From an uncultured Armatimonadota bacterium (GTDB lineage: Bacteria; Armatimonadota; Fimbriimonadia; Fimbriimonadales; Fimbriimonadaceae), in the NCBI GenBank assembly GCA_903899015.1, contig CAIUHP010000087.1, positions 1-36,374 of the forward strand: a stretch of 36,374 nt of DNA, written 5' to 3'. The position numbers and the translations under genes are program-made. Below are positions 12,662 through 19,098 of this stretch, piece after piece; positions within the stretch are counted from its first letter, which is position 1; each line of letters starts with the position of its first letter. The notes under the pieces were generated by a model, which saw only the letters and a program-made list of their open reading frames with translations, ran no database searches and was not told the origin of the DNA.

Positions 12662-13210
12662 TCAATCTCGAAACCAGCGGGATCGTTTTTGACGTTGCAC
12701 CCATGCTTCAAGCACAGCCTGGACATTGGCTTCAAGCGGATTTATCGAAGACAATTCGAGGTCGTAGACACAGAGTTTGTGAATCGTTAAGAAATCTTGG
12801 CGAGCGCTTCCCACGCGCCGATCTCCTCGCTCTATTTCCCTCCGTTCGAGTTCCTCAATCGGGCAATGTAGCCCAATCATAAACACATCAAACGGGCGGA
12901 GCAATTCTTGTAGATGGGCGCACCACTGATCGGTTTCAATGATATGTTCAACAATAAGGTTGTTTCCCGCCTCAGCGAGGGCCGGCAAACAGCGACGGAA
13001 TCCGTCAAAGAAATGAGGACGAATCTCGTTCCATTCGAATTCAGCGACTTCTGGACGCGAAGGCGGCAGGATCCTGGCGGCAATCAAATGGTCGATGGAC
13101 ACGTGCCAGAAAGGCACCGGAAGCGCGCTTTGTAACGCCTGGGCCAGTGTTGATTTCCCAGAACTTGACGCCCCGTTGATGAAAATTATTTTGCCAGGTG
13201 AGTCGCTCAA
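12662..13210 (-). CDS. Chloramphenicol phosphotransferase-like P-loop kinase
   Basis: The domain of about 183 residues matches CPT-like kinases. It has Walker A GASSSGKST (G13 to K19-S20, counted from TTG 13210), then LPVPFWHVSIDHLI with D40 where CPT has its catalytic Asp. EIERGDRRVGSARQ follows as the lid region. CPT phosphorylates chloramphenicol, but family members also act on other small molecules, so resistance is not certain. The start is a problem: the frame is open to 13462 with no ATG anywhere, and the only upstream starts are TTG or GTG. I chose TTG 13210 because the family begins just before the P-loop and the divergent gene at 13442 needs a promoter here. Confidence 0.7.
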   Translation of the reverse strand: MSDSPGKIIFINGASSSGKSTLAQALQSALPVPFWHVSIDHLIAARILPPSRPEVAEFEWNEIRPHFFDGFRRCLPALAEAGNNLIVEHIIETDQWCAHLQELLRPFDVFMIGLHCPIEELERREIERGDRRVGSARQDFLTIHKLCVYDLELSSINPLEANVQAVLEAWVQRQKRSRWFRD

Positions 13211-13429
13211 TTTCTTCAGTTCTAATTTACGGCAGGTCTCAGCTATTCTACCGAGATAATAGGTTTGCCACAATCCCGATGAACGGGTGCCATTACATGC
13301 TCCAAGGTAACCCACCAAGCGTTTTTCAGGTTCGGTTAGAAATCTCTCAACATCATTGAGAGACGCGCCATTCCTTGCGGTTTGAAGAATGGAAATCCGA
13401 TTTGCGCGCCAGAATGCCGATGCGCTTGA

Positions 13430-13435
13430 TAGACT
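13430..13435 (+). promoter_or_regulatory. -10-like box TAGACT of the GloVer gene
   Basis: TAGACT lies 6 nt before ATG 13442 and no Shine-Dalgarno is present, so the transcript may be leaderless. No -35 box is evident at the usual distance. It lies inside the upstream open frame of the divergent kinase gene. Confidence 0.4.
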
Positions 13436-13441
13436 TCGGCC

Positions 13442-15808
13442 ATGGGCACTTGCGTTAAACAATCCAGCTTAAGTTCCAATGCGTTCCGATCTGGGATCTC
13501 TCTTTGCATTGGACTCGCCGTCGTGCGAAGCGCACAGGCTCAATCGCCGACCTACTCCAAGCTGGCTGATTTGCCCGCGAACAATTTGAGCTTCCCAGGG
13601 GACTATTTTTCCTTGGGATTGACTGAGAGCGTAAATATGCCAGGAACCTTCTTCGGACAATACGCCCTTGATGAAGATAACAGTCAACTGTTCTGGGTGA
13701 ACTCAAAAGGCATATTCAATACGGGCCCTGGCTTTCAGGGAAATTGCCCTCAAGGAACGATGATCAGTCAGGGCGACGGAACCTTTTGGGGAACCAGTGG
13801 CGGGTTTGGCGGTGCCGGGATTATATACTACGGAACACCGACAGTTGCCCTCTACAAAGCAGATATTCGAGGGGGTTATGCTCCCGTTTATAACTTCACA
13901 TTCGATCAGGGCCAGAGCTTCAATCGGCTTACAGTGGCAAGAGGTTGCCTCTATGGTTCTGCGATCACGGGAGGCGTGCCAAATTCCAAGAATTCGGGTG
14001 GCGATGGCACGATCTTCAAGATTACTCCCGGCTACAACGTGATTATGCTGAGACAGCTCGACCGGACCATCAGCACTCCCGAAGCCGGGCTTCCCACTGG
14101 ACCGCTTTTCCTTGCTTCCGACGGCAATTTGTATGGAACTTCGTTGAGAGGTGGTCCGAAAGACGGAGGAACCGTTTACAAGCTCGACGCTAAAGATCGA
14201 TTTTTTGTCGTTCACTCGTTCATCGGGACTGATGGCCAAGCGCCCTTTGGAGGTCTCGTTCAGGGCCGCAATGGAGTTCTGTACGGCACCACGTATGAAG
14301 GTGGCAAGAGTGGCAAAGGCATCGTCTTCGGTGTGACAACAGGCGGAAAATTTACGACCATTCATACCTTTGGTGATGGTTCGGTTGCAAACGATGGAAC
14401 GCACCCAGTAGCCGGACTAACCCTCGGGCCAGATGGCAGTCTATATGGGACGACCGAAGTTGGTGGCAAGTATGGAAATGGCACCGTTTATAGGATTTCT
14501 CCATCAGGCACCGAAACAATCGTGCATGCTTTTGGAACCTCAACTTCCGATGGCATCAATCCCTGCGGTCTGCTCACGGTTGGGTTGGATGGCAATCTTT
14601 ATGGTTCAACCGCATGGGGTGGGCAGAACAATAACGGCACCGTCTTCAAAGTCGTGGTCCAAACGCCACCTTCCGTCAAGCTCTCGATAAGTCCTTCGAC
14701 TCTTACCGTTGCCGCTGGCAACCACATTGTCTACAACATAACCTGCACGAACCTTGGAAAAGTTGCCGCCTACGATGTGAGCATCAATGCGATCGTCCCA
14801 GCACACACTCAACTCGTTGATCAAGGTGCGGGAAGCAACCAATGGTCGCTGAGCAACGGTCACTTAACGGGCAGCATAGGAAGCCTCCTCCCTGGCCAGT
14901 CAGTCGTCTCATCATTTGCTGTTTCGGTTGGACTTACAACACCGGCAGGTACCAAGCTGGTCAGTTCCGTAAGTGGAACCTTCACTGCCGGGACGATTCC
15001 AACTTCCGCAACTTCAGTCGTCACCGTCACGTCTCATGGGTCCAAAAACCTTGGCTACTCAGTTCAGAATGGTGATTCGAAGATCCTTCAGGGATCAGGG
15101 ACAGGAAGCTCACCGGTTTCACCCGTTTCAGGAAAGATTCAATTCGCTAACAAACTCGGTGTGCTTTGGCTAAACGTTGATCTTTCTAATAATGGAACTC
15201 AAAGTTCCTGGAAAGCATCCGGAAGTGTTTCTCAGATCCTTTCTCAACTTCAACTTCTCCCTCCGAATCAGAATCCAGCAACTCTCATCGGTACATTTAG
15301 TCGAGCCGATGACTCGCTAACGGTCCTGGCGAGTCCGTATTCTGGAGGTCTGGGCTTGGCCGGCACGATGAACGCTATGCAACTATTTGACCTTCTTCCG
15401 TTAGGTGGAGCAGATATGTCACGACCTGGGGTTGCTCTGGCCATTCCGGTGTTTATTCAACTTCCCGACTTCGCGTCGGCGTCAAATGCCTTCAATCAAT
15501 CACTTCTCGACTATTCTCATTCAAATTGGACAGCCCTGAATACAGACTTGCAAGCGATGTCCGTTAGCCTTATCGCCCTGTCAAACAACCCTACCGAGTT
15601 ATCAGCGTTTGAAGGCAACCTAGCGGCCCTCAACCCCGGATTGCCTGCACAACTCGTTAAGAGCCGCATACTCAATGCTTCGGGCATCACCGACCTTGGC
15701 GCCTTGTATTTGGCAAGACCGATGATGGTCGCAGACCTTTTAGCTTATGCAAGGAGTGCTGATCTTCACCAAGGTGGGGTCAGTTCAACGTTTTTTGCGG
15801 TGCCATAA
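13442..15808 (+). CDS. Secreted GloVer-repeat and DUF11 protein
   Basis: This is a 788-residue exported protein. A signal peptide covers residues 1 to about 34, ending AQA before QSPTYS. Residues 185-405 hold at least four GloVer tandem repeats (TIGR03803), each carrying a DGxLYGTTxxGG...GTVYK core; a degenerate earlier copy lies near 110-180. These form a beta-propeller-like surface. A DUF11 domain (about 412-530), a beta-sandwich seen in extracellular matrix and sorted proteins, follows. The last 250 residues (about 540-788) match nothing I know; no C-terminal anchor such as PEP-CTERM is visible. The next gene starts 3 nt after the stop, so the two are co-translated or at least co-transcribed. 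Confidence 0.85.
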   Translation: MGTCVKQSSLSSNAFRSGISLCIGLAVVRSAQAQSPTYSKLADLPANNLSFPGDYFSLGLTESVNMPGTFFGQYALDEDNSQLFWVNSKGIFNTGPGFQGNCPQGTMISQGDGTFWGTSGGFGGAGIIYYGTPTVALYKADIRGGYAPVYNFTFDQGQSFNRLTVARGCLYGSAITGGVPNSKNSGGDGTIFKITPGYNVIMLRQLDRTISTPEAGLPTGPLFLASDGNLYGTSLRGGPKDGGTVYKLDAKDRFFVVHSFIGTDGQAPFGGLVQGRNGVLYGTTYEGGKSGKGIVFGVTTGGKFTTIHTFGDGSVANDGTHPVAGLTLGPDGSLYGTTEVGGKYGNGTVYRISPSGTETIVHAFGTSTSDGINPCGLLTVGLDGNLYGSTAWGGQNNNGTVFKVVVQTPPSVKLSISPSTLTVAAGNHIVYNITCTNLGKVAAYDVSINAIVPAHTQLVDQGAGSNQWSLSNGHLTGSIGSLLPGQSVVSSFAVSVGLTTPAGTKLVSSVSGTFTAGTIPTSATSVVTVTSHGSKNLGYSVQNGDSKILQGSGTGSSPVSPVSGKIQFANKLGVLWLNVDLSNNGTQSSWKASGSVSQILSQLQLLPPNQNPATLIGTFSRADDSLTVLASPYSGGLGLAGTMNAMQLFDLLPLGGADMSRPGVALAIPVFIQLPDFASASNAFNQSLLDYSHSNWTALNTDLQAMSVSLIALSNNPTELSAFEGNLAALNPGLPAQLVKSRILNASGITDLGALYLARPMMVADLLAYARSADLHQGGVSSTFFAVP

Positions 15809-15811
15809 AAC

Positions 15812-17953
15812 ATGATTCTAATTGGACTTCTGGTTGGATTTAGCGCGTTTCAATCGACCCTTGCTGAAAATAAAGACCCAAAGATCACTCTCACAGTTCA
15901 GGCGACTTCCGTCAAAACGGCACTTGAACTTATTGGATTAAGCGCTCATGTCACTCTCCTTACGACACCTCAAACAGCGAAAGACATCGTTTCCTTGAGG
16001 TTCGTAAATGTTCCTCTCTCGGAAGCCATGCAGCGTATTGCGAATGTTGATGACGCTGAGTGGAAGCAGGAAAAGGACGGCTATAGGCTGATTCGCCCTG
16101 CAAAACTAGAACGAGCAGAACAGGATTTCGAGCGGAACCGTGCCATCCAAGCATTCTCGAATGCGTTGAATGAACGCCGAACGCAACTTCAAAAGCTAAC
16201 TCCTTGGAGCGAGCAAGAAGCCGACCACTATATTGAGCAGATTCAGGCCCTTATCAAGGATCTGCCAACTACCAACCCACCACCAGCTTGGAGAAAACGT
16301 GGGCAACAGATTCTACTGCAGTCACCGTTTTCAAGGGCGATTAAAGAGTTGGTCGCGACAATGGATCCGGTGGAACTCGCGGGAATCCCAACTTCCTTTC
16401 GAACCGTTTGGTCCTCAAAACCGACTCAAACTCAACGGCCTTTTTCGACTCTCTCTCAAAAAATCCTTGAGCAGTACGCGCAGAATGACTTGATCTGGAA
16501 GAAAGCGATTGTGAGCCATTCTGTAACTCCTCCAACGGTTACCGGCAATCCATTTTGGACTCAACAGCTTGCCACCTTATTAAAGACGGATCGTCATTCT
16601 AGCCCCACTTTTCTACTTGCATTTGACAATGGTCGGGACTTCACTTTAACCGCCTACGACGATGACGGGAAGAAAATAGCGAGTTCGACGGACTCGCTAC
16701 AAGGGAGACTTCCCACAAACGACGACTCGCTTAAGACTCTGTTTAATAACCCTAAAGAAAAGCCGATCTCACTCGAAGGGGATAGTCGTTTATTGACTGA
16801 TTTCATTCGAAAAGGAAATATTGATGAACGCGGGACACCTCCCGCTAACTTACTTGCCAAATTACTCGATCCAGAACGCACCGATCCCCTTGCCTTGACT
16901 GGCTCGCCGCTGTTAGTCCGGGTTACTGAGGCTCGAAATATCAACATGATCGCGCGACTTCCCGATAAATTGGCGGTCATCGACGAAATTGCGGCCATCC
17001 GAGGTCAAGAATCGGACGCTTCGCTGGCACTTGGCCAATATTCTGATTGGGGAGGCCTCATTGATTTCCACGATGGTTGGTTGACCGTTCGACCGGACCA
17101 CCCAGCCCAAACAAGAACCATTCAGGTTGATCGGCGGGCCCTTGGGAAATATCTCAATCGACTCAATCGAAAGACACCCCTGACAGTTGATGAGCAAGCC
17201 AGCTTAATAGCACCCCTCCCTGAATTTGAATCAAATGACTTACCGTTTCGTCAGGCAACGTACTTGAACTGCCCAGAAGCGATGTTTATGGACTTCCCAA
17301 TCCTTCGTTTTTACGCGGAAGTGACTCCTCAACAGCGTGAGCGAATGCAGACCGTTGGAATGCCTCTCGCAAGCTTAACAACACGTGAACATGAGCTATT
17401 GAATCGGATGGTGTACGGACTCTCGTATATCCTAACTTATACGCCACCTCCTAAGATCGATGGTGTGACGGCAATTGATTCTGAGCTCTATGCGTCGGGA
17501 ATTCTGAGTGACGCCACCGAATCCTTACCATCTGGGCTTCCTCCCGAAGGAATCGTCAAGGTGCGGGTCCAGAACCAACCGTGCGTTTATGAGCAAACAC
17601 CAGACCAAAAGGTTCATGGCATGGATCAGCTTCTACCCGATCACTTGGCGATGCTCATTTACGCAGAGAAACACCCGGAAGAGTTCAAAAACAATAACCC
17701 GGTTGCGGGTCGAGATTTCAAACATTTCATGGTTGGAAACCGAACAACGATTACTCTCACCTTTCAATTCACTCCGACTCTTTCCATGACTGGATATTTG
17801 CAGGATGGAAACGTAACGAATCTGAAGAGTTTGCCCTACGAAGAGCTTCCTCAAACCTACAAGAGTGAATTCGAAATTGCCTATGATAAGTGGGCAAGAA
17901 TGATGGCACTACGAATTGCGGGGACCAAAGGGAAAGCTATTCCTCCTCCTTAA
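15812..17953 (+). CDS. Secreted protein with secretin/STN-like N-terminal domain, unknown function
   Basis: The 713-residue protein has a signal peptide (MILIGLLVGFSAFQSTLA) with cleavage near residue 18. Residues 24-95 read ITLTVQATSVKTALELIG, then SLRFVNVPLSEAMQRIANV and a YRLIRP strand. This is the beta-alpha-beta plan of the STN/secretin N0 domain, found in secretins and TonB receptors. The remaining 600 residues have no secretin pore domain and no family I recognise. The gene follows the GloVer/DUF11 gene with a 3-nt gap and no separate ribosome-binding site, so its product probably works with that protein in the envelope. A stop at 17953 is followed by no clear terminator. Confidence 0.75.
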   Translation: MILIGLLVGFSAFQSTLAENKDPKITLTVQATSVKTALELIGLSAHVTLLTTPQTAKDIVSLRFVNVPLSEAMQRIANVDDAEWKQEKDGYRLIRPAKLERAEQDFERNRAIQAFSNALNERRTQLQKLTPWSEQEADHYIEQIQALIKDLPTTNPPPAWRKRGQQILLQSPFSRAIKELVATMDPVELAGIPTSFRTVWSSKPTQTQRPFSTLSQKILEQYAQNDLIWKKAIVSHSVTPPTVTGNPFWTQQLATLLKTDRHSSPTFLLAFDNGRDFTLTAYDDDGKKIASSTDSLQGRLPTNDDSLKTLFNNPKEKPISLEGDSRLLTDFIRKGNIDERGTPPANLLAKLLDPERTDPLALTGSPLLVRVTEARNINMIARLPDKLAVIDEIAAIRGQESDASLALGQYSDWGGLIDFHDGWLTVRPDHPAQTRTIQVDRRALGKYLNRLNRKTPLTVDEQASLIAPLPEFESNDLPFRQATYLNCPEAMFMDFPILRFYAEVTPQQRERMQTVGMPLASLTTREHELLNRMVYGLSYILTYTPPPKIDGVTAIDSELYASGILSDATESLPSGLPPEGIVKVRVQNQPCVYEQTPDQKVHGMDQLLPDHLAMLIYAEKHPEEFKNNNPVAGRDFKHFMVGNRTTITLTFQFTPTLSMTGYLQDGNVTNLKSLPYEELPQTYKSEFEIAYDKWARMMALRIAGTKGKAIPPP

Positions 17954-18072: not shown

Positions 18073-18078
18073 GGGGAG
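18073..18078 (+). promoter_or_regulatory. Ribosome-binding site that sets the TTG start of the globin-ankyrin gene
   Basis: GGGGAG at 18073-18078 lies 9 nt before the TTG at 18088. An in-frame TGA at 18079 rules out any start further upstream, and no ATG occurs near the globin N-terminus, so TTG is the supported start. Confidence 0.65.
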
Positions 18079-18087
18079 TGAATAGGT

Positions 18088-19098
18088 TTGAAGGAATCGC
18101 AGTCATTGCTGGATCAACTTGGAGGTGAATTTGGATGTCTGCGACTCGCCACAGAATTCTATTCCCGAGTTGCCGAAAATACCGATCTCAAGCCATTGTT
18201 TCCGGGAAAGAGCTTACGTTGTGCGACAGAAGAGTTCTCGGCTTTCCTCGTTCAATTCCTGGACGGGGATGAAAGTAAAACTCAATATCGTTGGTGGTTG
18301 AGCTTAAAAGAATCGCACGGAAGATTTCAAATTAGTGAAGAACAACGGTCCGCTTGGCTCGGCTTGATGCGTGAAACGATCCACGATTTGTATGAGGACC
18401 CCGAAACGCGACAGACTCTTCAGCGTTTCTTCCTGACTTCATCGGCCTACATCGTCGGCAAAAGTCAAGCGGAGATCGGCCACACGGAATTGAGTCATCG
18501 ATGGGAAACTCCGAAGTCGCTAGATCGCCTCGTCGAATACATTGCGAAGGGCTATGATTTCGATGCGATTGAACTTACCAAAAAGTTCAAATCGAGACCC
18601 GCCGTGTTCGTTGGCATCTTGGAAAAGATGATGGCCACTGGTCGCGAACTACCGGTTGAGTTCGTTTTAGCGAGTATCACGGCCAACCCGGACTTAGTGG
18701 ACCATCCGTACAACGGTAGAGGTCTCCTCCATTTTGCCGCCGGATGTTCCTGTTTGCCGGTCGTACAGCTCCTAATAACTATCGGAGCAGACCCAAACAC
18801 AAGCGATAGCGGCGGGCACGCGCCCTTGTACCGCGTCGCAAGCACGAATGGATCTATCGACGGTTCCACAATCATTCGCGAATTGGTCCGAGCAGGCGCC
18901 GCTATGAATCACAACGGAGGTGTTATGCGTGCCACCGCTCTTCATCAAGCTGCCCGGTTTGGAGACCTTGAAGTCGCGAAAGCACTTGTCGACGCTGGTG
19001 CCAACCCAATGGCAAGAGACAAGAAAGGATTAACTCCCCTTGACCGTGCAGTCAGCGGCCGTCGGCACAAAGTAGCTGCTTTTCTTGCTTCGCTTTAG
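18088..19098 (+). CDS. Group II truncated haemoglobin fused to ankyrin repeats
   Basis: Residues 1 to about 128 are a group II (GlbO-type) truncated haemoglobin. Key residues keep the spacing of Mycobacterium GlbO: Y25 (B10), F38 (CD1, Tyr in GlbO), proximal H77 (F8) in KESHGRFQIS, and W90 (G8) in RSAWLGLM. The HGRFQIS-EEQRSAWL block is diagnostic. A linker (about 129-205) follows, then ankyrin repeats (about 206-336) with the hallmarks GRGLLHFAAG, HAPLYRVAS, ATALHQAARFGDLEVAKALVDAGANP and GLTPLDRAV. The globin would bind O2, NO or related ligands, and the repeats would bind a partner protein. No signal peptide is present, so it is cytoplasmic. Start TTG 18088 is supported by GGGGAG upstream. 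Confidence 0.87.
   Translation: MKESQSLLDQLGGEFGCLRLATEFYSRVAENTDLKPLFPGKSLRCATEEFSAFLVQFLDGDESKTQYRWWLSLKESHGRFQISEEQRSAWLGLMRETIHDLYEDPETRQTLQRFFLTSSAYIVGKSQAEIGHTELSHRWETPKSLDRLVEYIAKGYDFDAIELTKKFKSRPAVFVGILEKMMATGRELPVEFVLASITANPDLVDHPYNGRGLLHFAAGCSCLPVVQLLITIGADPNTSDSGGHAPLYRVASTNGSIDGSTIIRELVRAGAAMNHNGGVMRATALHQAARFGDLEVAKALVDAGANPMARDKKGLTPLDRAVSGRRHKVAAFLASL

Follow-up and report, generated by a model that had tools for sequence, protein, structure and literature searches.

What physiological role group II truncated haemoglobins play is a question of long standing, in part because most of them are single-domain proteins without an evident partner. Those of Mycobacterium (GlbO), Thermobifida, Geobacillus and Chloroflexus consist of the globin domain only. 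The protein described here is encoded in a stretch of 36,374 nucleotides ("the window"; contig CAIUHP010000087.1 of assembly GCA_903899015.1, an uncultured Armatimonadota bacterium of the Fimbriimonadaceae) and resembles these group II (O) globins in its fold, in its F8 His, G8 Trp and B10 Tyr and in the spacing of these residues, but differs from them in being joined to ankyrin repeats and in its F region, which reads WWLSLRESH where group II structures have GHPxLRxRH. This F region is the distinguishing mark of clade A, the group of fusions delimited below.

Globin-coupled sensors combine an N-terminal globin with a C-terminal output module (PMC1457004), an order of parts that the fusion shares. 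Their globin is however of the 3/3 type, which was not found here, whereas the fusion consists of a 2/2 group II globin with ankyrin repeats as its C-terminal module. The AnkB-type ankyrin proteins are reported to support catalase in Pseudomonas and Campylobacter, probably via haem binding, and Leptospira has an ank-katE operon (PMC7567364); the likeness lies in the ankyrin repeats and the link to haem. These proteins are encoded by separate genes beside catalase genes whereas here the haem module is the fused globin, and catalase linkage was absent with the exception of one katG neighbour (genome G002). Each element is already known separately, namely truncated haemoglobins, ankyrin repeats and globins coupled to an output domain (for the last, see PMC1457004). 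A search of the open-licence literature, which covers few subscription journals, brought up no account of a globin or truncated haemoglobin joined to ankyrin repeats, and the domain pair has probably already been encountered by automatic annotation.

Globin domain and predicted ankyrin solenoid

The features of the fusion gene are listed in Table 1. Its frame is closed upstream by an in-frame TGA at 18079-18081 and the TTG is the only start codon before residue 8, and as such the earliest start possible. This start is consistent with the homologues, a few of which likewise begin with TTG or GTG. The original prediction had derived a low but real expression level from the TTG and its Shine-Dalgarno sequence; a start codon is no basis for judging expression. 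The host genome (4.94 Mb) carries one trHb2-ankyrin fusion gene and, on another contig, one single-domain truncated haemoglobin. As had been proposed for verification, the full protein was searched against Pfam: Bac_globin (6.3e-12, residues 7-111), Ank (2.1e-16) and Ank_2 (2.5e-16; both at residues about 214-334) were all matched well above cut-off in one frame which, together with the homologous fusions, confirms a group II globin fused to ankyrin repeats.

Table 1. Positions in the window of the fusion gene, its domains and the putative haem-pocket residues
Feature	Position	Strand	Remarks
trHb2-ankyrin fusion gene	18088..19098	+	336 aa, TTG start, stop TAG
GGGGAG, Shine-Dalgarno-like	18073..18078	+	9 nt 5' of TTG; sequence
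Group II truncated-haemoglobin domain, residues 7-120	18106..18447	+	Pfam, PDB profile, Foldseek of globin model
Tyr25 (B10)	18160..18162	+	Tyr in 31/36 fusions, His in 5/36
Phe38 (CD1)	18199..18201	+	invariant, 36/36 aligned fusions
His77 (F8), putative proximal haem ligand	18316..18318	+	invariant, 36/36 aligned fusions
Trp90 (G8)	18355..18357	+	invariant, 36/36 aligned fusions
Conserved middle part, residues 121-207	18448..18708	+	ankyrin-like helical hairpins from about 139-167 on
Pfam-recognised ankyrin repeats, residues 208-335	18709..19092	+	Pfam, structure model

In the PDB, the sequences closest to the globin half all belong to group II truncated haemoglobins, from Geobacillus (2bkm, 4.4e-13), Thermobifida (2bmm, 1.9e-12) and Mycobacterium (GlbO, 1ngk, 4.0e-9). 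Because structure searches with the whole chain listed almost solely ankyrins, the globin was modelled and searched separately; the resulting model (pLDDT 82) has its best Foldseek matches in the group II structures 2bkm, 5d1v, 1ngk and 2bmm (TM 0.78-0.83) and matches the 3/3 sensor globin DosC weakly (TM 0.55). A profile of 31 fusions also has group II structures at the head of its PDB matches. It aligned without gaps to 1ngk from before B10 to G8, which places Y25, F38, H77 and W90 at GlbO spacing and agrees with what had been predicted for the B10, F8 and G8 positions. R68 and K41 are also invariant among the 36 aligned fusions. On sequence grounds, the domain would probably bind haem. Truncated haemoglobins usually stabilise their ligand with TyrB10 and TrpG8 (PMC4720485), and the occurrence of His at B10 in some members suggests that their ligand chemistry may differ. 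The view that F38 is a replacement altering ligand stabilisation did not stand: truncated haemoglobins mostly carry Phe at CD1, Tyr or His being variants of group O (PMC4720485), and Phe is also found at this position in the group II globins of Geobacillus and Chloroflexus.

The middle part gave no significant Pfam match for residues 121-207, and is kept across clade A; conservation of the domain pair together with the intervening stretch, which was to be checked in relatives, was found for both. The whole-chain AlphaFold2 model, built with 31 sequences, has a mean pLDDT of 91.7 and a pTM of 0.87. In this model, residues 208-335 superpose on the designed ankyrin 1n0r (Z 22.8, 1.4 A), residues 167-335 align to designed ankyrin over 157 residues (2.1 A, Z 22.3), and residues 139-335 align to natural ankyrins over about 186 residues (3.3-3.9 A, Z about 21). 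Tandem 33-residue helix-turn-helix repeats, the hallmark of ankyrins, are present. The description of the C-terminal half as an ankyrin array is thus upheld as to its nature and amended as to its extent, which is longer, the modelled chain being ankyrin-like from about residue 139-167. Since the model alignments begin at these residues, the ankyrin-like solenoid is predicted to start close to the globin, with no long flexible linker in the model. Residues 61-80 are better predicted in the whole chain (block pLDDT 79/75) than in the globin alone (57/58), a difference in pLDDT which suggests packing of the proximal F region against the solenoid.

Within the fusion family alone, ankyrin conservation is of 2.80 bits at binding-face positions, 2.99 at structural positions and 1.86 at outer-surface positions, with p=0.004 for binding face versus outer surface; the binding-face positions are those so treated by DARPin designers. 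Groove residues that stand out are the consensus H244, N252, R290, N323 and C324 and the invariant R320. The window copy departs from the groove consensus at 252, 253, 291, 323 and 324, so that its own groove may have drifted or changed in specificity. The fact that different phyla share this groove points to a single kind of partner, or else to the groove packing against the globin itself. Pairwise distances in the globin and ankyrin parts are correlated (r 0.77 in clade A and 0.83 overall, with 0/2000 permutations as high), as expected for any single gene inherited whole. The conserved groove and the correlated divergence would be compatible with the predicted regulation of a partner protein.

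Distribution, relationships and gene neighbourhoods

Two DNA patterns derived solely from the globin half were run against 84,980 species genomes and retrieved 32 loci, 30 of which have ankyrin repeats in the same open frame. These loci are labelled Acidobacteriota (most), Armatimonadota, Eremiobacterota, Chloroflexi and Rhodanobacteraceae, mostly the first two; the single MAGs labelled Chloroflexi and Rhodanobacteraceae may reflect binning errors. The remaining two loci are decaying copies, namely a frame-shifted one in which both parts are still recognisable (L044:5974-7007) and a truncated relic (L046:5902-6306). Homologues having the two halves in separate frames, which would have spoken against the fusion, were sought and are represented solely by these two copies, the former being a MAG sequence. 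A scan of genome contigs with a single sequence yielded no relative while the profile scan did retrieve relatives. Carriage by phages or plasmids was considered and rejected: no relative was found on viral contigs, and plasmid records gave two distant, partial globin matches only.

In the globin tree, clade A forms one group (99% SH-aLRT) whose members are exclusively fusions and the two damaged copies. Acidobacteriota and Armatimonadota rows are intermixed in this clade, which suggests that the fusion gene has been transferred between phyla. A second form, clade B, has a shorter middle part and one further C-terminal repeat. Among 20 genomes of the genus, the clade A form occurs in 7, the clade B form in 4 (G003, G008, G010 and G018) and both in none. 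A single clade made up of A and B could be neither established nor refuted (p-AU 0.34). Of 251 sampled genomes of the phylum, 64 contain a Bac_globin match, and in 21 of these 64 an ankyrin fusion was recognised from the long open frames.

Other architectures were also encountered. Two more divergent Bac_globin proteins of 477-513 aa with long ankyrin arrays (L140:822-2360 and L142:386-1813) possibly represent a third fusion lineage. Armatimonadota proteins of about 290-336 aa (L098, L100, L102, L146, L147, L150 and L151) contain two tandem globin-like domains, several with an apparent signal peptide, and their position in the tree is far from group II globins.

Clustering of 347 ORFs from 33 loci revealed no recurrent neighbour indicative of a function, nine further neighbourhoods showed nothing consistent, and neither a conserved neighbour naming a partner nor a recurrent nearby reductase gene was found in the neighbourhoods examined. 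In G002 (L155:3323-7049), a Fur/PerR-like gene and, after it, katG are oriented divergently from the fusion gene, the sole such arrangement seen, and in G169 the fusion gene lies near a gene that by eye resembles superoxide dismutase; these two single cases hint at an oxidative-stress link. A small gene, DinB/YfiT-like by eye, adjoins the fusion gene in three genomes (L155:7042-7524, L029:6966-7607 and L022:5444-5908), which may be due to chance as such genes are common. Catalases of the Pfam Catalase type occur in 0/20 genomes of the genus, and no gene of this family was found in the window or recognised beside the 32 loci; KatG is absent from 4/11 fusion carriers and present in 9/9 non-carriers of the genus. 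A link to copper nitrite reductase was also rejected, no genome of the genus having a match above cut-off.

A proposed coupled haem protein and alternative readings

Recurrence of the fusion in at least two phyla with conserved haem residues and groove suggests a so far undescribed haem protein that depends on a partner. The reading preferred here, to which we give a probability of roughly 0.4, is that of a protein acting via a bound partner, with its haem state coupled to a rigid ankyrin docking surface. The truncated-haemoglobin module would hold haem via His77 and place Tyr25 and Trp90 distally, and would be seated rigidly on the ankyrin solenoid, the concave groove of which would hold a specific partner. 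A change in haem state, that is O2 or NO bound or unbound, or oxidation, would be relayed via the F-helix region (residues 61-80, with the conserved R68-W69-W70) to the ankyrin part and would there alter partner binding. Computed support comes from the fusion itself and its conservation, the haem residues, the continuous predicted solenoid, the co-divergence and the groove conservation; haem binding, the nature of the ligand, the relay, and that a partner exists and what it is, are inferred. Points against this reading are that no neighbouring gene names a partner, that the groove might bind the globin itself, and that the window copy departs from the groove consensus. A wider version can be put forward tentatively, in which the fusions would make up a widespread class of 2/2-globin sensors, spread in part by horizontal transfer between Armatimonadota and Acidobacteriota, whose haem ligand or redox state gates the ankyrin groove; such sensors would parallel the globin-coupled sensors but be built on a truncated haemoglobin, their output being protein docking.

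The main rival to the coupled haem protein is a tethered enzyme in which the globin would be a catalyst, of a type like NO dioxygenases or peroxidases, and the ankyrins would serve only to anchor it to a client, to a site on the membrane or to a reductase that donates electrons, the haem state having no signalling role. This is possible but somewhat doubtful: the B10 and G8 residues are those usual in ligand-stabilising pockets (PMC4720485), the fusion has no reductase domain, so that a docked donor would be needed, and the groove is conserved, but the F region is more highly conserved, and the joint predicted to be more rigid, than a simple tether needs, and a reductase gene is not recurrent nearby. 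Both readings predict haem binding and a partner, and they differ on whether affinity for the partner depends on the haem state.

It is rather unlikely that the protein is a scaffold without functional coupling, its domains having been joined by chance and kept since each is useful alone; ankyrin genes are abundant in these genomes, where fusions may thus arise easily, and the more divergent fusions L140 and L142 would fit, but the pair is retained in different phyla together with a conserved middle part, and its separation was seen in the two damaged copies only. By analogy with the catalase-supporting ankyrin proteins of Pseudomonas and Campylobacter (PMC7567364), the fusion could deliver haem to, or guard it for, a haem-dependent enzyme such as KatG, as the G002 arrangement would allow; this is improbable given the lack of Pfam-type catalases in the genus, the distribution of KatG among carriers and non-carriers, and a katG neighbourhood that occurs once. 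That two separate genes were joined artificially during sequencing or assembly is favoured by nothing beyond the fact that most homologues come from MAGs. The recurrence of this fusion, middle part included, in >30 independent assemblies, and the presence of a clade B fusion in the single-contig genome G008, make it exceedingly improbable; a sequencing-error fusion is ruled out by these homologues. Because nature has joined it to a docking groove that is conserved, this globin gives a way into the question of what a truncated haemoglobin works on and, if true, the coupled haem protein would add to the known modes by which globins are coupled to output modules.

Upstream sequences and adjacent genes

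TACAAT-like -10 hexamers were observed close upstream of the start in Acidobacteriota homologues (L021, L022, L025, L027, L030, L032 and L035), ending in many homologues about 7-9 nt 5' of the start codon. This short distance suggests that the fusion-gene mRNAs may be leaderless in Acidobacteriota. The window copy differs in having the Shine-Dalgarno-like GGGGAG instead of such a hexamer near the start.

Directly upstream of the fusion gene in the window, 15812-17953 (+) encodes a probably secreted protein of 713 aa that has no Pfam match above cut-off. Further upstream, 12662-13462 (-) encodes a chloramphenicol phosphotransferase-like P-loop protein (Pfam CPT 9.3e-44, residues 90-240) whose first 85 residues may result from an over-extended start.
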